In this document: piece by piece, positions 17,289 to 26,997 of the stretch
Position numbering within the stretch: position 1 is the stretch's first letter
Layout of the letters: the number at the start of each line of letters is the position of its first letter
NCBI GenBank assembly: GCA_016873315.1
Contig: VGXL01000005.1
Span: 1-49,513 of the forward strand
Origin: Phycisphaerae bacterium
Lineage (GTDB): Bacteria > Planctomycetota > Phycisphaerae > Phycisphaerales > SM1A02
Reading direction: 5' to 3'
DNA: 49,513 bases
Position numbers and translations under genes: made by a program
Notes under the pieces: model-generated
Databases searched by the model: none
The model's input: the letters and a program-made list of their open reading frames with translations, nothing else
Told to the model about the DNA's origin: nothing

Positions 17289-18244
17289 CCCGCACTGTGT
17301 TCAACGAGGGCTGTCTTCCAGATCTGGAGCCAGCCGATCGGGCGCTGATCGATCAGCTTGTGGTCGACCCCCGCGCTTCGGGCCGCGATCTCGCCAAGGC
17401 GCTGGACTGTTCCGAAGCCAACATCAGCCGACGACTGAACAGGCTGGTGGCCGAACACGCCGTCCGCATTCGGGCGGTCATGTCATTCGACCGAGCTGGT
17501 CTTTCCGCGAGCGCCATCATGATCGTCGAGAGCCGTGATCCCGCCACGCTCGGCGAGCGGCTGGCCGCGCACGAGTGGATTCACTTCATCGCCACGACGG
17601 GACCGATGAACGGACCGCCCCACGCGCTGATCTTGCATGGGTCTGCCACCAACGGAGCCGCGTTTCGCGCGTTGCTCGATCGCGATCTTCGCACGCACGC
17701 TGATGTCACGGTCGTGGATGCGCGCATGGTCCTGGACAACTTCGACGCACCCGAGTCGACCGACGCACAGGGGCACAATTGGCGTGGTGGTCGACCGCTC
17801 GACCGCGTGAACCGCGCGATCATTCGCGAACTGCAGCGCGACGGCCGCGCGACCTTCGCCACGCTCGGCGAGGTCGCTGGGATTTCGTCGACTGCTGCAG
17901 CCGAGCGCTTCCGTCATCTGATCGACGATCAACTCATCACGATGTTGGCGTTCGCTGAGCCATCGCGCCTCGGTCGCCGCGCGGCGGGGCTGTTGCTCGT
18001 GCGTCCCCGCATCGGCACCGACGAAGCGCTCGTCGCTGCACGGTCCGTGGTCGACCCGCGCTGGATCGCCATGGTCTCGGGACCGAGCCCGATCGCGCTC
18101 GAGTGCAGCGCGGCCGACGGTCAGGACCTGCTCGCCGTCGCTGGCCGCGTGGCGGCGTTGCCGGGCATTTCGGATGTCGCGCTCCACCCATATCACGCGA
18201 TTCTCAAGGAATCGTTCGTCTGGTGCTCCGCTGACGAGGAGTAA
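17282..18244 (+). CDS. Tandem Lrp/AsnC-type transcriptional regulator
   Basis: The 320-residue protein contains two copies of the AsnC-type unit. The first winged helix-turn-helix is at about 15-65 (DRALIDQLVVDPRASGRDLA, then CSEANISRRLNRL) with a beta-alpha sandwich after it. The second helix-turn-helix is at about 174-225 (DRVNRAIIRELQRDGRATFA, then ISSTAAAERFRHL) followed by a second sandwich. Single-unit Lrp proteins are about 150-160 residues, so this is a duplication within one chain, resembling the double-domain AhbA/NirD-like or archaeal regulators in length. Such proteins sense amino acids or other small ligands. It sits next to a threonine/serine PLP enzyme, a plausible target. GAGG 7 bases upstream supports ATG 17282. 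Confidence 0.82.
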   Translation: MLTRTVFNEGCLPDLEPADRALIDQLVVDPRASGRDLAKALDCSEANISRRLNRLVAEHAVRIRAVMSFDRAGLSASAIMIVESRDPATLGERLAAHEWIHFIATTGPMNGPPHALILHGSATNGAAFRALLDRDLRTHADVTVVDARMVLDNFDAPESTDAQGHNWRGGRPLDRVNRAIIRELQRDGRATFATLGEVAGISSTAAAERFRHLIDDQLITMLAFAEPSRLGRRAAGLLLVRPRIGTDEALVAARSVVDPRWIAMVSGPSPIALECSAADGQDLLAVAGRVAALPGISDVALHPYHAILKESFVWCSADEE

Positions 18245-18299
18245 TCGCGCACGAGGGTCCGCTCTCGACGCTTCATCGCAGCCGACTAGCCTGCGCGGC

Positions 18300-19256
18300 A
18301 TGCATGCGGCCAGTTTGAGCGACATTCAGGATGCCTGGAGACGCATCGGACCCTTCGTGCATCGCACGCCGGTCATGACATGTCGCACGCTCGATGCGAT
18401 GTCCGGTCGGCCGCTGCACTTCAAGTGCGAATCCATGCAACGCACCGGCTCGTTCAAGCTCCGCGGCGCGACGAATGCCGTGCTTCGCCTGCCTGAAGAT
18501 CGTGCAACACATGGCGTCGTCACACATTCGTCCGGCAACCATGGCCAAGCTCTGGCGCTCGCGGCGCGCACGCGTGGAATCCCCTGCACGGTCGTGATGC
18601 CACACGACTCGGCGCGCGTGAAGAAGGACGCGGTCCGCTCGCACGGCGCCACGATCATCGAGTGCGAGCCCAACGCGGCAGCCCGCGCGGCAGCGGCCGC
18701 TCGTGTCGTGCAGGACACAGGTGCCACGCTCATCCCGCCCTTCGATCATCCTCACATCATCGCGGGCCAGGGAACGGTGGCGCTCGAGTTCCTGGAGCAG
18801 TGTCCACAGCTCAGCGCGATCATCGTGCCCATCGGTGGTGGCGGGCTCATCAGCGGCGTCGCCATCGCCGCAAAGGCGCTCCGGCCAGAGCTGCGCGTCA
18901 TCGCCGCCGAACCGCTCAACGCCGGCGATGCGGCGATCGCCAAACGCACCGGACGCATCGAACCCGTACCGCCCACGCGCACGATCGCCGACGGACTGCG
19001 CACGCCGCTGGGCGAACTCACGCTGCCGGTCGTGCGCGACCTCGTCGACGAGGTCATCACCGTGACCGAAGACGAGATCGTCTCGGCCATGCGTTTGGTT
19101 TGGGAACGCATGAAGATCGTCATCGAGCCCAGCAGTGCAGTCGGCGTCGCAGTCGCGGTGCAGGCAGCGTTCCGCGAACGGCCGCCCCTCGAGACTGGCG
19201 TCGTGCTCTGTGGCGGCAATGTCGATCTTGATGCGCTCCCGTGGATGCGCGGCTGA
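18300..19256 (+). CDS. Threonine dehydratase / serine racemase-family PLP enzyme
   Basis: The 318-residue fold-type II PLP protein has the lysine in TGSFKLRGA, the phosphate- and substrate-binding loops SSGNHGQALA and GGGGLISG, and the C-terminal EPSSAVG. It lacks the ACT-like regulatory domain of biosynthetic IlvA, so it is the short catabolic threonine/serine dehydratase or serine racemase type. Sequence alone does not separate deamination to 2-oxobutyrate/pyruvate from racemisation. The ATG at 18300 is 55 bases after the Lrp-type regulator and matches the family N-terminus. The frame is open further upstream, but that part overlaps the regulator. Confidence 0.88.
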   Translation: MHAASLSDIQDAWRRIGPFVHRTPVMTCRTLDAMSGRPLHFKCESMQRTGSFKLRGATNAVLRLPEDRATHGVVTHSSGNHGQALALAARTRGIPCTVVMPHDSARVKKDAVRSHGATIIECEPNAAARAAAAARVVQDTGATLIPPFDHPHIIAGQGTVALEFLEQCPQLSAIIVPIGGGGLISGVAIAAKALRPELRVIAAEPLNAGDAAIAKRTGRIEPVPPTRTIADGLRTPLGELTLPVVRDLVDEVITVTEDEIVSAMRLVWERMKIVIEPSSAVGVAVAVQAAFRERPPLETGVVLCGGNVDLDALPWMRG

Positions 19257-19279: not shown

Positions 19280-21880
19280 TCAGGGCGCGTTCGCGATCAT
19301 TTCGTCCAAGCGTGCCAACCGTCGTCGATGTTGCTCGCGCGTTGGTTCAAGGACGCCGAGCGCCGCAACATGCACGCGCGCAGCGGCCAGGTTGCCGGCC
19401 TCAAGTTGCGTGGCGGCTGCGAGCTCGCGCAGCGAAGGATCGAATGGATTGATGCGAACCGCGCGTTCGATGTGCGCGCCAGCGCGGGCGCCATCGCCGG
19501 CCGCGCGAGCGATGCGTGACAGTTCGATCGCGTAGGAGTTCTCACGGTCGGTGACCGCGTCCAACCGCTCAAGGTGCGGCACGGCGTCAGCATCGCGCCC
19601 TGCGATGAGGGCAACCTCGGCGAGCTTGCGATGCGGGAAAGGATCCACCGGCCGCGTGCGGCTGTATCGATCGAGTAGCGCGATCACCTCCGGCGCATCA
19701 CCCTCGCCACGCTCGGTGCGCCGTCGAATGGCGAGCTCAAGCAAGTCAGGATGGTCCGGATGCGCGCGCAGCAGAAGATCGAGTTCCTTGTCGCTCACCG
19801 GGTCGACGCGGTCCTTGCCCAAGAGCGCATCAGCCGGCGGCTCCGGCGCAAGCCCCCATGCCTTGACTTGCGCGCTCGCCCACGGCGTGAACCGCTGCAG
19901 AAACTCTTCCTTGGACACCTCGAGCACTTGCGCAAGAACCTGCGACTCCGTGGCGCCCTCTGCGAAAAGCGGAAGCATGCGACGCAACGCCTCGTCGCCC
20001 CATGTCGCGCGGATGAACTCGACCCACCAGTGCCCCTGCGCATACGCCTGGGCTCGGTCGGTGGGCTTCGCCGGTCGCACAAACGCGAGCAGGATCGAAT
20101 CGAAATCGAAGAGCGTTCCGCCCTCGAGCGCCGCCGCGAGCATCTGGCAGTCCTTGTACTCACGACGCTTGTGCTGCAGATCGACGGCAATCGCTTCGGT
20201 CATCCAGTGCGGGATGCGATTGCGCGTTTGCGAGAGCGTGACCGTGTGCACATACTCATGGCGCACGACATCGAGCCAGTCGAAGAGCCCAAGGTGCTTC
20301 TTGCGGCTGCCCTCGCGCGAGACCTCCATCGCGATCACGGGTCCCGTGCACGCGGCGATCGTGTGAATCGCGGGCATCCCCGTGAGCCGCACGCCAAACC
20401 ACTCGTGGTCTGGCATGAGTTCGATGCGCGTTCGCCGCGATGGTTCGTGACCGAGCCGCGCGCAGACCTCGTCGTGCATGGCATCGAGCTGCGAGAGCAT
20501 CCCATCGGCCATCGCATCATCGATGCCTGGTTGCGAACGCAGCGTGAAGTGCTTTCCTTCTCGCACGGGCCACGGCGCCATGTCCTTGAGCAGACGAAGG
20601 CTCAGCGTGGCGCTGACATTGAACGGATCGCGCTCGACGGCCGCGCCGAGCGCTTCGAGCGCGCGAGCATCCTCGCCTGACTGCATGTCCATCAGGCCCA
20701 GTTCCATCGGTGGTTCGCTCCACTCCGGGGCGCGATCCCACGCTCGGCGCAGCAACACCGCAGCGTCCTCGTACTGGCGGCGCCGCGAGAGCATGCGACC
20801 CACCTCAAGCGGAGCATGCGGGCTGCCGGGCGCGGCGCGATCAGCATCGGCGAGGGCTTGTTCCATCGCTTCGGGGCGAAACCGCACCGCATGCATCGCA
20901 GCGAGATAGGCCAGCGCATCGGGTTGCGCGGGTGCGAGCGCCAACACCTGGCGCAGCATCGGCTCTGCACCGTCAGCATCGTCCAACATGAGCGCTGTGC
21001 GCGCACGGAGCAGCGCGGCGGCGGAACATGCCGGCGAGAACGCGTCGATCGCATCGGCGATCGCCTTGGCATCAGCGCTCTCCATCGCGCCCGCGGTGAG
21101 TTCTCCGCGCAGGCGCCACGCTTCGGCCAGTCGCGGGTGCTGTGCCAGCGCATCGGCGAGCGCCTTCCACGCATCGCCACGGTTGTGACGAGCCGCAAGG
21201 ATGCGCGCCTCGATCAGCATCGCTTCCCAATCCGTTCGGTCCAAGGCGCGCGCGGCGCCAAGCGCTGCCATCACGGCCTCGAAGAGTTGCGGCTCCACGC
21301 GGCCAGTCATCGACCAGGCCTCGAGCGCTTCGGCTTTGGCGAGCACCAGATCGCGCTGACCCTGCGTGCGCACGACCGCCGGCATCGGTTCGGCCATCAG
21401 CGGCTCGAGCGCCTTCCGCGACTCGGCGAGTTTGCCGGCACCTGCAAGGGCGATCCCCTTCAACGCCGTGGCGCGCGGCGAGGCATCATCGGCGAGCGCG
21501 GCGAGCGCACGATCCCATGCCCCCTGCTGCACGAGGGCGCGAGCGCGGATCACCGCCGGCACCGTGGGATCGGCGAGCGCAGGCTCATCCCAACGCCACG
21601 CCCACACGGCCGCCTCGGCGGCGCGCAGCGGCGTGTCGAGATCGCCCTGCTCCCACGCGCCGTACCGCACGCGCAGATCCTTGAGCGCATCAGGTGTGGC
21701 AGCCTTCGAATCGAGCGCCGCTCGGCTTGCTGCCGAACGCGGAATCACGGTCGGGTCTTGGCGCCGAGCGGGTGCAGCCGCGTCTTGAGCATTGGCCACC
21801 GCCGTCACGATGGGCGCTGCGAGCAACAGCGCAAGCGCAGTGACGAGGACAGAGCGAGGCACGATGCGGTCGCGCGTCAT
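19280..21880 (-). CDS. Exported TPR protein with gluzincin-type (peptidase MA-like) metallopeptidase domain
   Basis: The 866-residue protein begins at ATG 21880, which overlaps the upstream gene's stop in ATGA. From there residues 1-32 are a good signal peptide (MTRDRIVPRSVLVTALALLL... then VANAQ). Ala-rich helical TPR-like repeats fill residues about 45-440. Residues about 470-665 hold HEYVH (541-545) and a downstream Glu in PHWMTEA (562), the HExxH...E zinc site of gluzincins. More TPR-like helices follow (about 710-866). It probably acts in the periplasm or at the outer membrane. The substrate is unknown. It is the last gene of a four-gene operon. Confidence 0.83.
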   Translation of the reverse strand: MTRDRIVPRSVLVTALALLLAAPIVTAVANAQDAAAPARRQDPTVIPRSAASRAALDSKAATPDALKDLRVRYGAWEQGDLDTPLRAAEAAVWAWRWDEPALADPTVPAVIRARALVQQGAWDRALAALADDASPRATALKGIALAGAGKLAESRKALEPLMAEPMPAVVRTQGQRDLVLAKAEALEAWSMTGRVEPQLFEAVMAALGAARALDRTDWEAMLIEARILAARHNRGDAWKALADALAQHPRLAEAWRLRGELTAGAMESADAKAIADAIDAFSPACSAAALLRARTALMLDDADGAEPMLRQVLALAPAQPDALAYLAAMHAVRFRPEAMEQALADADRAAPGSPHAPLEVGRMLSRRRQYEDAAVLLRRAWDRAPEWSEPPMELGLMDMQSGEDARALEALGAAVERDPFNVSATLSLRLLKDMAPWPVREGKHFTLRSQPGIDDAMADGMLSQLDAMHDEVCARLGHEPSRRTRIELMPDHEWFGVRLTGMPAIHTIAACTGPVIAMEVSREGSRKKHLGLFDWLDVVRHEYVHTVTLSQTRNRIPHWMTEAIAVDLQHKRREYKDCQMLAAALEGGTLFDFDSILLAFVRPAKPTDRAQAYAQGHWWVEFIRATWGDEALRRMLPLFAEGATESQVLAQVLEVSKEEFLQRFTPWASAQVKAWGLAPEPPADALLGKDRVDPVSDKELDLLLRAHPDHPDLLELAIRRRTERGEGDAPEVIALLDRYSRTRPVDPFPHRKLAEVALIAGRDADAVPHLERLDAVTDRENSYAIELSRIARAAGDGARAGAHIERAVRINPFDPSLRELAAATQLEAGNLAAARVHVAALGVLEPTREQHRRRLARLDEMIANAP

Positions 21881-22707
21881 GGAGCGAGCGGACGGCGATC
21901 GACCGTCCATCCTTCTGGTGCTGCCTTGACCTCCACCAGTGCGCGGTCAGCGTCGCTGAGTGGTCCGACCTCCACGGCACGCAGTCGCGCGATCGTGCGA
22001 TCGCCCTCGGTCGAGTCGCGCACGACGGCGATCGGCAGCGCCGTCGCTCGGTCCCACGCCACGATGAGCTGCTTCGAATCGCGTGCGGCGGGCGTGGATG
22101 CGCGCGGCACCAGACGCAGCACATCGCTCGCCGGCAGGTCCTTCCAAAGCGGACTCTCGGGAAGGCTGTCGGGCGTCACGATGTAGTTGGCCAGAACTTC
22201 GCTGCGACGCGCGCCCACCGGGAGCGCTAGCGGACCCTCGCCCGGTTGCAGCGGATCCATGCTCGCGCCCTCGGCCACGAGCTGACGCTCGACTTGCTGC
22301 TTGCGCGCGTCATCGCGCTCGATCAACCATCCATCGCGATAGACGAACACGCGACGGTCCTCGCTCGCGCGGCCTGAACCGTCGATGAACTGATCGATGC
22401 GCAGCGCGATCCGTCGCGTGGGACCGGCCGAACCCTGCAGGACGAGTCGTCCGCGGCGACGCTCGACATCATCCGTCAGCGCATCACGCTTCTCGATGAT
22501 CACCGTGCACGCCATCGACTCCAGACGCGCGCCTGCTGCCTCGGCTGCATCAAGAATTCGCTCGATGTCCGTGCTCGCGGTCGCAGCCTGCGCGCCGTCG
22601 GCCTGCGTGCCATCGACCGGCGCCTGCCCCACCGCCACGACCGAATGGTTCGGCTGCGCGGAGCACGCCACGGCGAGCGCAAGCACCGCGAGCGCGTGCG
22701 TCGTCAC
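21877..22707 (-). CDS. LolA-like exported protein (possible lipoprotein)
   Basis: The 276-residue protein starts with GTG 22707, overlapping the upstream stop as GTGA, and ends overlapping the next start as ATGA. The N-terminus is a hydrophobic segment followed by ACSAQP, a borderline lipobox. The rest shows alternating beta strands (RRGRLVLQGSAG, RIALRIDQFIDG, VFVYRDGWLIERD), then KQLIVAWDRATALPIAVVRD, which resembles the half-barrel of LolA-like carriers of lipoproteins or hydrophobic ligands. Assignment to this fold is by pattern only. Tight coupling on both sides suggests that it works with the membrane protein and the metallopeptidase. Confidence 0.65.
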   Translation of the reverse strand: MTTHALAVLALAVACSAQPNHSVVAVGQAPVDGTQADGAQAATASTDIERILDAAEAAGARLESMACTVIIEKRDALTDDVERRRGRLVLQGSAGPTRRIALRIDQFIDGSGRASEDRRVFVYRDGWLIERDDARKQQVERQLVAEGASMDPLQPGEGPLALPVGARRSEVLANYIVTPDSLPESPLWKDLPASDVLRLVPRASTPAARDSKQLIVAWDRATALPIAVVRDSTEGDRTIARLRAVEVGPLSDADRALVEVKAAPEGWTVDRRPLAP

Positions 22708-23750
22708 TTCGACTCCTCGAACATGTCCATCATGGGATCACTGCCCGAAGCGCCGCCATCTGTGTCGTCACCGTCAACGCCTTGGCTCACGGCGTTGGCG
22801 AGCGTGGCCAGCACCACGACCAGGCACAAGCCCGAGCGCCAAGCCACACCGACGATCGGTTTGGCCCCGCGCAAGCATGGCTTGCAGACCAGAAGCGCGA
22901 AGAACGGTGAGAGCAGGATCACGGCCCAGTGTCCGGGCCGAACATCGCCGTAGTTGTATGCATGCCCGCAGAACGCAAGCACGCACGCGATCGCGGCGAG
23001 CGTCGTCACGCCGGCCGCGGTCCACGGCACGAGTTCGCACATTGCCTCGGCCGGGCACTCCGCGCCACTGGCGACAGCCTTCACCATGGTGTCGGCGCCG
23101 GGCTCGGGAACTGGTGCCGCCGCGCGCAGGCGCGTTGCCTCGCGCAGATTGAGCACGCCGCTGACCATGCCGACCCCTGCGAGCGCCGCGGCCACGGCGA
23201 AGGCAATCACCCCAAGACTCGCGAAGTTCGCCAGCACCATCAAGACGCCGAGTCCTGCGAAGACGATCGCCGACATCATCGCCATGCCCACGCTGCACGC
23301 ATCGCGCGACACGGCGGACCAGAGCAGGCCCACAAGGATGATCGCGACGAGGAGCCCCGCCTGGATGTACGGGTTGCTCGCGGGGAACACCACGTACTTC
23401 CATGCGAAGCCGCCAAGGATCGCCGCCACGATCGACCACTGCGCCCACCACGCCGAGTGCTTTCGCGACACGATCGCACCCACGATCGCCGCCGCGCCGA
23501 CCGCGTACGGCAGGACGTGCCATCGTTCCGCAGGCGGAAGACCGACGGGACCGGCCTCGAGCAAGAAGCTCGCGATGAAGGCGAATGGAGCCGCCAGGGT
23601 CTGACCGAACTGTGCCCAACGAACCACCGGTGCGCGATCAGCTTCAGCGCATCGCGCCACCATCAGCACGCCGATGCCGCCCACCGACAGCCCCAGCAGG
23701 GCTGGCAGCAGCAAGACCTTCACGACATAGAACACGACATCCGAAGACAT
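22704..23750 (-). CDS. Polytopic membrane protein, unknown function
   Basis: The 348-residue protein has about nine or ten hydrophobic segments across its length. A soluble loop at about 205-245 (acidic, with CPAEAMC) follows the seventh, and CKPC lies near the C-terminal end. The C-terminus is acidic (DGDDTDGG..., MMDMFEESK). I do not recognise a family. It starts 3 bases after the YceI-like gene's stop and its own stop overlaps the next start (GTGA), so it is translated from the same message. Confidence 0.78.
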   Translation of the reverse strand: MSSDVVFYVVKVLLLPALLGLSVGGIGVLMVARCAEADRAPVVRWAQFGQTLAAPFAFIASFLLEAGPVGLPPAERWHVLPYAVGAAAIVGAIVSRKHSAWWAQWSIVAAILGGFAWKYVVFPASNPYIQAGLLVAIILVGLLWSAVSRDACSVGMAMMSAIVFAGLGVLMVLANFASLGVIAFAVAAALAGVGMVSGVLNLREATRLRAAAPVPEPGADTMVKAVASGAECPAEAMCELVPWTAAGVTTLAAIACVLAFCGHAYNYGDVRPGHWAVILLSPFFALLVCKPCLRGAKPIVGVAWRSGLCLVVVLATLANAVSQGVDGDDTDGGASGSDPMMDMFEESK

Positions 23751-23753
23751 GCG

Positions 23754-24389
23754 TCACTCGGCCTTCGTCTCGTCGCCCTCGAGCCCGATCACCAGACGCA
23801 CCTCGTCGCCGATCGCCTTCGGCGGCTTCTGGATGCCCCAAGTCATGCCGAACTCGCTGCGCAGGATCGTGAGCGTGCACTCGAATCCGACCTTCTTCCC
23901 ACCGGGCCCCTTGCCCACGCCGGTGACGACGCAGTCGACCGTCACGGGCTTGGTCACGCCGTGCAACGACAGGTCGCCCGTCAGCGTCCAGTGGCGCTCG
24001 GCCACGCGGGTGCCGCCCGTCGACGTGAAGGTGATCGACGGAAACTCCTTCTCATTGAAAAAGTTCGGTCCCTTTAGATTGTTGTCGAGCTTTTCGCTGC
24101 CGGTGTCGATGTTCTTGATCTCGGCGGTGGCCTTGATCACGGGTGCCGCTGAGTCGTCCGCCGGCCACGCCGCGGTGCCCGCGATCGCGTTGAAGCGACC
24201 CCAGAACTGCCCCGCTTCCAAGTGCTGGATCCGGAAGAGCGCCATGCAGTGGACCGGGTCGAGCGTGAGCTCGCCCTCTGCGGCGCGCACGCTCGCAGCG
24301 GCCGCCGTGGGCGCAGCCGGCATGGGCCGCGACACAGCGGCGAACAACGGAATCGCAAGCAACGATGAAACGACGATCAGAGTGCGCAT
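23754..24389 (-). CDS. YceI-like periplasmic protein
   Basis: The 211-residue protein has a signal peptide (MRTLIVVSSLLAIPLFAAVS). The mature part carries the YceI lipocalin-like pattern: LDPVHCMALFRIQHL near the start, IKATAEIKNIDTG, NEKEFPSITFTST, and LTGDLSLHGVTKPVTV. YceI proteins bind isoprenoid or amphiphilic ligands in a beta barrel. GGAGGA 4 bases before ATG 24389 is a strong ribosome binding site, and this is the first gene of the four-gene envelope operon. The usual YceI length is about 190 residues, so it is full length. Confidence 0.93.
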   Translation of the reverse strand: MRTLIVVSSLLAIPLFAAVSRPMPAAPTAAAASVRAAEGELTLDPVHCMALFRIQHLEAGQFWGRFNAIAGTAAWPADDSAAPVIKATAEIKNIDTGSEKLDNNLKGPNFFNEKEFPSITFTSTGGTRVAERHWTLTGDLSLHGVTKPVTVDCVVTGVGKGPGGKKVGFECTLTILRSEFGMTWGIQKPPKAIGDEVRLVIGLEGDETKAE

Positions 24390-24440: not shown

Positions 24441-25643
24441 TCAGGGCGCGAGCGATTGATGACCCACGATGTCCAGGCCGAACCCGTGCAATCCCGGCAG
24501 GGCGCGCGGATGATCGGTGAGCAAGCGCAGTCGCGACAGCCCAAGATCGCGCAGGATCTGACCGCCGATGCCGTACTCGCGCTCGCCCATCGGCTGAGCC
24601 TTGCCGCCGATGCCCGACGGTCGAGTGAGGTCGGGCGCATTCACATCGTCGCCAGCTGCGCGACGGATCGCGTGCAGTCGCGATCGAAGGCTGTCATCGG
24701 TCTCCTCGGGCCGCAGATAGACCAGCGCGCCGCGACCAGCGGCACGGATCGCGCGAAGCGAAGCGCGAATCGTCTCTTGCCCGCTGCGATCACCGGCTGC
24801 CGTGGCACCGAAGATGTCGCCGAGCACATCGCGGCGATGCATGCGCACCAAGACTGGATCAGCGATCGGCGAGACCGTGCCATCCGCGCCTGGAATCCCG
24901 ATGCCGCCAATCGTCAGGGCCAGGTGCGGCTGCGGATCGATCGTGCTGTGCCACGCGAGCACTGTGAACTCCCCCTCGGGCGTCATCACGAGTTCGCCCG
25001 TCACGGGCTCGATGCGTCGCACCAGGCTCTCGCGTCGCAGGCGCCACTCGATCACCTGCTCGACTGAGCACATCTTGAGCCCATGCTGCGCGCAGAGTCG
25101 TTCAAGGTCGGGCACGCGGGCCATCTCGCCATCCTCGCGCACCACTTCGATGATGCAGGCCGCGGGTCGCAGGCCGGCGAGCCGACACAGATCCACGCTG
25201 CCCTCGGTCTGGCCGGTGCGCACGAGCACGCCACCATCGCGCGCACGAAGCGGATTGATGTGACCGGGGCGCACGAAGTCATCCGGCCGCGAAGTCGGAT
25301 CGCACATGAGGTGGATCGTCTTGACGCGGTCGCGCGCGCTGATGCCGGTGCCGACGCCGTGCCGCGGGTGACCATCCACGCTCACCGTAAAGGGTGTCGC
25401 ACGCAGGCTTGTGTTGATCGCCGCCTGCGGGACCAGATCCAGCCGCTCACACGACGCACCGTCGAGCGCCACACACAGGTAGCCGGCGCCCACGCGCGTC
25501 ATGAAGTTCACCTGCTCGACCGTGAGCGACTCGGCTGCGCACACGAAGTCGCCCTCGTTCTCCCGGTTCTCGTCGTCCACCATGACCACGATGCGGCCCG
25601 CGCGGAGTTCGTCGAGGATCTCGGGGATGGGACAGAGCGGCAT
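24441..25643 (-). CDS. ribB: RibBA homologue: 3,4-dihydroxy-2-butanone-4-phosphate synthase with degenerate GTP cyclohydrolase II domain
   Basis: The 400-residue protein has the length of RibBA. Residues 1-205 are a full DHBP synthase: DDENRENEGDF (23-33), GTGISARDR and RPGHINPL (125-132). This half makes the four-carbon unit of riboflavin from ribulose-5-phosphate. Residues about 210-400 align with GTP cyclohydrolase II (LRPEE and YGIGGQILRDLGL are recognisable), but the zinc motif C-x10-C-x-C is replaced around 269-290 (MHRRDVLGDIFGATAAGDRS) and contains no cysteine. GRGIG after the LRxEE motif is also lost. The second half is therefore probably inactive as cyclohydrolase, as in the RibBX variants known elsewhere. 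The ATG at 25643 fits the family N-terminus. It diverges from the M42-type gene. Confidence 0.92.
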   Translation of the reverse strand: MPLCPIPEILDELRAGRIVVMVDDENRENEGDFVCAAESLTVEQVNFMTRVGAGYLCVALDGASCERLDLVPQAAINTSLRATPFTVSVDGHPRHGVGTGISARDRVKTIHLMCDPTSRPDDFVRPGHINPLRARDGGVLVRTGQTEGSVDLCRLAGLRPAACIIEVVREDGEMARVPDLERLCAQHGLKMCSVEQVIEWRLRRESLVRRIEPVTGELVMTPEGEFTVLAWHSTIDPQPHLALTIGGIGIPGADGTVSPIADPVLVRMHRRDVLGDIFGATAAGDRSGQETIRASLRAIRAAGRGALVYLRPEETDDSLRSRLHAIRRAAGDDVNAPDLTRPSGIGGKAQPMGEREYGIGGQILRDLGLSRLRLLTDHPRALPGLHGFGLDIVGHQSLAP

Positions 25644-25683
25644 GGGAGGGAAAGCGTAGCCGCGAGCGTCGTACGATCGCGCC

Positions 25684-26997
25684 ATGCCCACGCCAGCTCG
25701 TCGCACCAGCACCCGATCCACGTCGTCAAAGCGGGTCACGAAGCCCGCGCTCGCAACGCGCGCACCGACGCTCAGCCCTTCGCAACGCGCCACAATGCAG
25801 CGTTGGTTACTGGAACTCACCGACCTGCCCACCGCTGCAGGCCGTGAGCACCGCGTGATGGCGTGGGTGGATCAGTGGCTTGCCGCGCGTGCAGACCGGC
25901 TCGCCGTGGCTCGTGATGATGCGGGCAATTACCTGATCACGCGGCGCGATCTGCCACGCGGCGCGCAGCAGGTGCTCATGACGGCGCATCTGGATCATCC
26001 GGCGTTCGTCATCACGCGCATCGAGCGCGGCCGCGTGCATCTGGAGTTTCGGGGCGGCGTGCTCGACGCGTACTTCGCGGGCGCACGGCTCGACGCGATC
26101 GATGCAGGCGATGCGCACCATGCGTTGCGCATCGATCGCGCCGACCTCAAGGCGACGCCCTTCAAGACTGTGATCGCCGTGCCCACGGGCACCGCTGCTG
26201 CCAAGGCTCGAGCGCTGCGTGACCTTGCCGTGGGCGACATCGCCCGCTGGCGTTGGTCAGGTTCGCGCGGTCCCGAGCGGGCGCATGTGGCGACGCACCC
26301 CTTGCCGGCACTCATGCCGGGTGGGCGCACGAGGCGTGCATCCGTCCTGCGCACCCACGCGTGCGATGACCTGGCCGCCGCAGCCATCGCACTCGCGGTG
26401 CTCGACGCAACGCTCGCGCGCAAGGACATGGCGCATCTGGGCCTTGTGCTGACCGTGGCCGAGGAAGTGGGCTTCATCGGCGCGATCCATGCCGCACGCC
26501 ATGGCTTCATTCCAAAGCGCGCGCTGCTCCTGAACCTCGAGAATTCTCGCAGCTATCCGCACGATTCGCCGATCGGTGCTGGCGCGATTCTGCGCATCGG
26601 CGACCGAGCCACCGTCTTCGACGCGGGCATCGTCAATGCGCTGTCCGCCGAGTTCGGGCGACTCACCAAGGCCGATCCGGCGTTCCGTTGCCAACGCAAG
26701 CTCATGCCTGGCGGGTGGTGTGAGACCACCGCCTTCGGTTGCTACGGCTACCGCAGCGTGTGCCTGTGCCTGCCGCTGGGGAACTACCACAACATGGAGC
26801 GACTCGAGCGCGTGGAGACTGGCTCGGGTCCGGCGCGCATGGGTCCGGAGTTCGTCTCGATGGACGACTGCGCGAGTCTGGCCGCCATGCTGCTCGTCGC
26901 TGCGTCCATCCTCGCCCGGCCCATCGCCTGGGATGGCAAGAAGACCATGGAATCTCTGTACGCCCAGAAGAAGCGGGTGCTCGCCCCGCAGCCCTGA
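25684..26997 (+). CDS. M42-type zinc aminopeptidase / endoglucanase-like peptidase
   Basis: The product has 437 residues. Metal ligands of the M42/M28 co-catalytic fold are visible in order: LMTAHLDHPAF (His), HACDDLAAAA (Asp), VAEEVGFIGA (Glu-Glu), NLENS, and a late His in LGNYHNMERL. Between the first and second ligand lies a longer insertion, as in the PDZ-like dimerisation insert of M42 enzymes. It probably removes N-terminal residues from peptides in the cytoplasm. The first 35 residues are Ser/Thr/Arg-rich and not conserved in the family. An internal ATG (25795) could be the true start. Confidence 0.82.
   Translation: MPTPARRTSTRSTSSKRVTKPALATRAPTLSPSQRATMQRWLLELTDLPTAAGREHRVMAWVDQWLAARADRLAVARDDAGNYLITRRDLPRGAQQVLMTAHLDHPAFVITRIERGRVHLEFRGGVLDAYFAGARLDAIDAGDAHHALRIDRADLKATPFKTVIAVPTGTAAAKARALRDLAVGDIARWRWSGSRGPERAHVATHPLPALMPGGRTRRASVLRTHACDDLAAAAIALAVLDATLARKDMAHLGLVLTVAEEVGFIGAIHAARHGFIPKRALLLNLENSRSYPHDSPIGAGAILRIGDRATVFDAGIVNALSAEFGRLTKADPAFRCQRKLMPGGWCETTAFGCYGYRSVCLCLPLGNYHNMERLERVETGSGPARMGPEFVSMDDCASLAAMLLVAASILARPIAWDGKKTMESLYAQKKRVLAPQP

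Follow-up and report, generated by a model that had tools for sequence, protein, structure and literature searches.

A divergent LolA homolog encoded beside a TPR metallopeptidase in a four-gene envelope operon of a Phycisphaerae bacterium

Introduction

Do four tightly coupled envelope genes of a planctomycete encode one machine, or parts with separate histories? The question is raised by an operon at 24389-19280, all on the minus strand, that was recognized from the sequence and open reading frame (ORF) list of a 49,513-nucleotide stretch of a Phycisphaerae genome (GCA_016873315.1, contig VGXL01000005.1, positions 1 to 49,513; referred to here as the window). An earlier note on this DNA had proposed that its YceI-like, membrane, LolA-like and TPR metallopeptidase proteins handle lipids or lipoproteins together in the envelope. 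Planctomycetes are held to be diderm.

Results

The operon opens with a gene for a YceI-like lipocalin with a signal peptide (23754..24389, minus strand), preceded by GGAGG at 24399-24395. The YceI label given from the sequence is borne out by PF04264 (125.2 bits, against a cut-off of 23.7). After a gap of 3 bases (CGC) comes MEM (22704..23750, minus strand), a polytopic membrane protein with about 10 predicted transmembrane (TM) segments, characterized by its hydropathy count and its recurrent pairing with YceI. A GTGA stop/start overlap (22704..22707, minus strand) couples MEM to LOLA (21877..22707, minus strand), which encodes a divergent LolA homolog, and an ATGA overlap (21877..21880, minus strand) couples LOLA to the gene of the TPR protein (19280..21880, minus strand), which has a signal peptide and a Peptidase MA (gluzincin-like) domain; gap and overlaps are as the earlier note had read them on this strand. 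For the TPR protein the ORF list gives a start at 21910, and we prefer 21880 because this start yields a signal peptide and fits the alignment. A promoter and terminator scan was uninformative (0 promoters, and 2 terminator-like sites where 3.1 were expected).

All four genes follow one another in seven of the nine genus genomes, in some of which the TPR gene runs past the contig end, and the other two are interrupted by contig ends, so the arrangement is more than chance. The four-gene operon is real, and the outcome that would have spoken against it in the earlier note, genes never found together in relatives, was not seen.

Two flanking genes deserve mention. The RibBA-type gene (24441..25832, minus strand) is context outside the module and is the usual upstream neighbor of LOLA in relatives without the YceI-MEM insertion. 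Its GTP cyclohydrolase II half lacks C-x10-C-x-C, which we take to be the zinc cysteine motif of that enzyme, as do the 74 copies in loci L033-L192 (75/75 in all, some contigs being shared); because the motif is missing throughout, this half is probably not a functional GTP cyclohydrolase II in this family. On the other side, a PLP-dependent dehydratase gene (18174-19256) scored best with beta-hydroxyaspartate dehydratase BhcB, at 398 of the 550 bits needed; its true start probably lies further downstream, since the listed one overlaps an AsnC-type gene by 71 bases.

Structure and profile comparisons show that LOLA is homologous to canonical LolA. The AF2 model (alignment of 58 sequences) reached a pLDDT of 88.0 and a pTM of 0.80, and its top Foldseek matches were LolA structures. 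With VIA-align, the model matched LolA of F. tularensis at Z 17.9 (2.7 A over 183 residues), LolA of E. coli at Z 17.0, RseB at Z 14.2 and LolB at Z 10-12.5; the fold is common to LOLA, RseB, MucB, LprG and LppX. A LOLA profile aligned with that of 20 planctomycete PF03548 LolAs at an hhalign probability of 98.3% (E 1.7e-14, 187 columns), against 0.1-0.4% in control comparisons with the YceI, TPR and MEM profiles. In a Pfam scan the window LOLA had no PF03548 match, and the model weakly matched two of the 58 LOLA members (best E 0.0047). Because PF03548 fails to recognize the window protein, we file LOLA as a divergent homolog and not as a member of that family. The earlier LolA-like label therefore stands on structure and profile comparison, where the window protein has no Pfam match, and the fold is that of LolA (Z 17.9) and not another one. 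The statement that neither the membrane protein nor the LolA-like protein is described by a Pfam family was also correct.

LOLA is widespread. Single-sequence searches of 101 genomes (own, genus, family and order) found 92 with LOLA, 88 with the TPR protein, 76 with YceI and 12 with MEM. Among 294 sampled genomes of the phylum, all 22 class members were matched by the LOLA profile (E <= 2.3e-14), as were, weakly, 17 genomes outside the class (best E 9.2e-9), with 13 of these weak matches falling on the same ORF as a PF03548 match when compared by hand. PF03548 itself matched 76 of the 294 genomes and none of the 22 class members. The own genome has a single LOLA, with two further matches at E about 0.17 only, and profile searches of it returned neither PF03548 nor PF17131. 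Since PF17131 LolA-like proteins occur in 73 of 198 class genomes, some class members possess another LolA-like protein. The own genome also encodes a LolC/E/F-like permease (TIGR02212, 145.6 bits, below the cut-off of 362), directly followed by the start of an ABC ATPase, a LolF-LolD-like pair. In a review, the lolF-lolD arrangement is given as typical, a LolF-LolD-LolA form without LolB is described, and LolB is said to be recognizable in two proteobacterial classes only (PMC11784454). LOLA is probably the overlooked LolA of the class, a function that we infer: it resembles PF03548 LolA in fold, profile homology, single copy and the LolF-LolD-like pair in the genome, but differs in being missed by the PF03548 model, in often carrying a lipobox-like motif and in being co-encoded, and twice fused, with a TPR metallopeptidase.

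For that partner, the description as a TPR metallopeptidase holds in large part. TPRs were confirmed on either side of the peptidase domain, and H541, E542, H545 and E562 (HExxH...E) are invariant in 24/24 aligned TPR proteins; the part that fell short is the Peptidase_MA_2 match (PF13485), which in the window protein stays under its cut-off (26.2 against 32.4 bits), while 24/24 family members are matched at E <= 0.001. The zinc-site motif HEYVH (residues 541-545) lies at 20246..20260 and Glu562 at 20195..20197, both on the minus strand; by analogy with gluzincins, Glu562 is presumed to be the third zinc ligand. Matches of the 24 members comprised Peptidase_MA_2 and TPRs only, with the M48 model absent. 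BepA is a secreted M48 TPR metallopeptidase thought to act in outer-membrane quality control (PMC8423444); the TPR protein is likewise a secreted zinc-peptidase-like protein with TPRs, but it has a Peptidase MA in place of an M48 domain, TPRs on both sides and a LolA-fold partner. Relatives are widespread in the phylum (201/294 genomes at E <= 1e-30), and none were found in viral contigs. The class members outside the order (7/7) lack such relatives but do have LOLA, so some role of LOLA needs no TPR peptidase.

Adjacency of LOLA and TPR was read by hand over the 101 genomes. In 48 of the 51 own-family genomes that have both genes, no more than about 1.1 kb separates them (G029 and G035, with weak or fragmentary TPR matches, being excluded). 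The same holds for 15 of the 30 genomes that represent the order's other families (excluding G064, with a weak TPR match), the remaining 15 comprising three within about 3 kb, one that is untestable at contig ends (G086) and 11 with the genes apart. A second view came from the named TPR loci, which are the best 80 of 404 relatives and of which 71 have enough upstream DNA: LOLA is near TPR in 65 of the 71, upstream on the same strand in 57, on the opposite strand in 6, fused in 2 and not found in 6. Of the 57 same-strand loci, 21 permit a 4-base overlap, although choosing the start codon nearest the stop favors overlaps. Six loci of one clade keep LOLA between RibBA and TPR but in inverted orientation (L139, L145, L153, L161, L167, L177). 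In eight others LOLA and TPR are separated by an opposite-strand gene, by eye a cysteine dioxygenase-type cupin (L141, L146, L160, L165, L166, L047, L049, L056), and other genes intervene in L171 and L192. The planctomycete locus is also present in contigs titled Bacteroidia (L119) and Vicinamibacteraceae (L164), metagenome-assembled genomes that are probably mislabeled or mixed.

In two genera (L140 and L169), a single open frame encodes both LOLA and the TPR protein. The first joins them directly and the second through a proline-rich linker, with an internal signal peptide in neither by eye. The two are not sisters on the TPR tree (2 changes), and they could nonetheless have one shared origin; the fusion genomes, G009 and G050, have one LOLA match each.

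These data bear on the reading that LOLA and TPR are neighbors through slow rearrangement only, without a functional link. It draws on the metabolic genes (RibBA, M42, dehydratase) kept in the same block, on the unrelated genes between LOLA and TPR in some clades and on the split of the pair in 11 of the 30 genomes of other families. We nevertheless regard it as improbable in view of the two in-frame fusions of different architecture and of adjacency that is kept even where the stretch lacks RibBA: in such fetched stretches, some of them shortened by contig ends, LOLA and TPR lie within 300 bases in 29 cases and within 1 kb in 6 (set A), and in 11 and 6 (set B), so the pair is not merely carried by the ribBA block. 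Locus sets L033-L109 and L113-L192 have contigs in common (e.g., L040 = L140, L074 = L169). Adjacency recurs in one genome outside the class (L244), where a LOLA-like ORF (49 bits) lies just upstream of a TPR-peptidase match. LOLA-TPR is an old pair, older than the four-gene operon. It is not obligate, as the 7 class members outside the order and some order members have LOLA without TPR, which weakens an obligate-complex reading. Where TPR is not adjacent, the class and order neighbors of LOLA (LysR, HAD, flavodoxin, integrase, kinase, RuvC/RuvX) gave no functional hint.

A lipobox-like motif was scored in 28 of 65 LOLAs with a PROSITE-like pattern, and the N-terminal signal of the window LOLA reads LAVAC. 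Together with the fusions, this counts against a simple soluble shuttle. It also feeds an alternative in which LOLA would be an RseB/MucB-like or LppX-like lipid sensor or carrier, and the TPR metallopeptidase its protease effector, or a scaffold, in a pathway of envelope stress or lipid handling. RseB/MucB, in the sigma-E pathway, is tied to a periplasmic protease pathway; RseB (Z 14.2), MucB, LprG and LppX have the fold of LOLA, the 28 LOLAs look lipid-anchored, and fusion to a protease would suit a sensor-protease unit. LolA structures, however, are clearly ahead of the others in their match to LOLA (Z 17.9 and 17.0), and LOLA is directly homologous to planctomycete PF03548 LolA and is both single-copy and present throughout the class where PF03548 LolA is missing. 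Moreover, for all the LolA-type fold that they have in common, LOLA differs from RseB/MucB in its lower structural match and in having no second domain, and no anti-sigma neighbor was noticed among the LOLA neighbors scanned. We consider a sensor doubtful and favor the LolA-type carrier.

The usual gene order in relatives is M42 <- RibBA -> LOLA -> TPR, with the dehydratase and AsnC genes facing it, and in the wider family RibBA mostly precedes LOLA with no YceI pair between them. In the genus, codirectional YceI-MEM separates RibBA from LOLA; the sister genus (L122, L126) carries the pair in the same slot, but inverted. As the TPR tree unites the two genera (SH-aLRT 97), one insertion and one inversion are enough, and a single insertion of YceI-MEM in their common ancestor can, from gene order and this tree, explain the arrangement. 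Elsewhere LOLA-TPR and YceI-MEM are separate two-gene units at different loci. The synteny comparison suggested by the earlier note thus found the set of four kept in the genus but divided into two units beyond it. A different clade has a distant YceI gene, without MEM, next to LOLA and divergent in orientation (L088, L090, L094, L095, L101, L147, L162, L183, L189), with PF04264 scores of 46-77 bits in the seven scanned of the nine, a second, weaker link between YceI and LOLA. At L162:2820-6057 there are three tandem matches to the YceI model divergent beside LOLA, one of the three having been Pfam-scanned.

The proposal of a single lipid- or lipoprotein-handling machine made up of all four proteins could appeal to the tight gene coupling in the genus, to the inverted YceI-MEM in the same slot of the sister genus and to the distant YceI genes just described. 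As a contiguous set, however, the four are confined to the genus and its sister, where YceI-MEM is inverted; YceI-MEM is apart from LOLA-TPR in most genomes, wider-family genomes keep LOLA-TPR without it, and G043 has YceI-MEM with no LOLA or TPR match. On this synteny we rejected a four-part machine, which appears very unlikely. The operon is best read as a composite of two older modules.

The YceI-MEM pair is recurrent in its own right. In 20 YceI loci, fetched mainly as best matches rather than at random and scored with a MEM model built from 7 sequences, MEM lies directly 3' of YceI in 16, or in 15 of 18 when the loci outside the genus are taken together with the own genome's second copy; a further locus shows a multi-TM ORF that the model does not match, and in two there is none. 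All 19 MEM matches among 9193 ORFs (L033-L192 plus the window, most being training members) adjoin YceI. This second YceI of the own genome also has a MEM-like gene behind it (L215: contig 44, 8000-18506). MEM is highly divergent: most members are 16-26% identical to the window MEM, no residue is common to all 22 proteins, and strong single-sequence matches within the 101 genomes are confined to the genus. The hydropathy TM count was 10 in the MEM of a genus-mate (L223). No credible Pfam or PDB match to MEM was obtained; short aquaporin or kelch matches in the PDB (E 0.01-0.5) and weak matches to FUSC and DUF4191, each in 1/22 members, were taken as chance. Of the single-protein structure predictions that the earlier note had envisaged, that of LOLA succeeded (pLDDT 88) but that of MEM was unusable (pLDDT 50.4).

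YceI-b561 pairs protect Burkholderia against lipid peroxidation (PMC9113575). In the LcoA-BcnA system treated there (cytochrome b561 plus a YceI lipocalin), a YceI gene is likewise coupled to a multi-TM gene (PMC9113575), but MEM follows YceI instead of preceding it, and the b561 model was absent among the matches of the 22 MEM proteins. We read YceI-MEM as most probably a module of its own for lipid protection; the pair adds a second, apparently undescribed kind of YceI partner.

Discussion

Taken as a whole, the reading that we prefer is of a LolA-type carrier with a TPR metallopeptidase, to which a YceI-MEM lipid module has been added; we put its probability at roughly 0.45. The LOLA-TPR partnership is supported by the pairing, the fusions and the zinc motif. 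The lipobox-like motif in 28/65 LOLAs, the two fusions, the missing PF03548 match of the window protein, the LOLAs without a TPR protein and the PF17131 proteins of other class members count against the reading, and much of the conserved LOLA-TPR neighborhood consists of metabolic genes.

Under this composite reading, LOLA would receive its cargo, acylated lipoproteins or else different acyl lipids, from an inner-membrane transporter of the LolF-LolD type and would carry or present it. The co-translated, secreted TPR metallopeptidase would bind LOLA or the cargo through its TPRs and may trim, mature or degrade envelope proteins that arrive or stall at LOLA, the two acting as a carrier-protease pair. 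YceI and MEM would most likely be a carrier of prenyl/quinone-type lipids and its membrane station, protecting envelope lipids; inserted upstream once, the pair would now be co-expressed with LOLA-TPR. We infer the cargo, the proteolytic substrate, the physical complex and the role of YceI-MEM. A bolder version, tentative and somewhat unlikely, is a Phycisphaerales variant of the Lol pathway with a built-in protease, in which cargo would be inspected or processed on the carrier, as a single chain in two lineages.

The class-wide divergent LolA with a metallopeptidase partner is the more interesting part of the operon. A limited literature search found no description of a LolA paired or fused with a zinc-peptidase-like protein, and such a pairing would connect trafficking with quality control. 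The standard LolA model is blank in the 22 sampled genomes of the class, and the divergent LOLA, present in all 22, closes this gap and opens the trafficking of lipoproteins in Phycisphaerae to testing.
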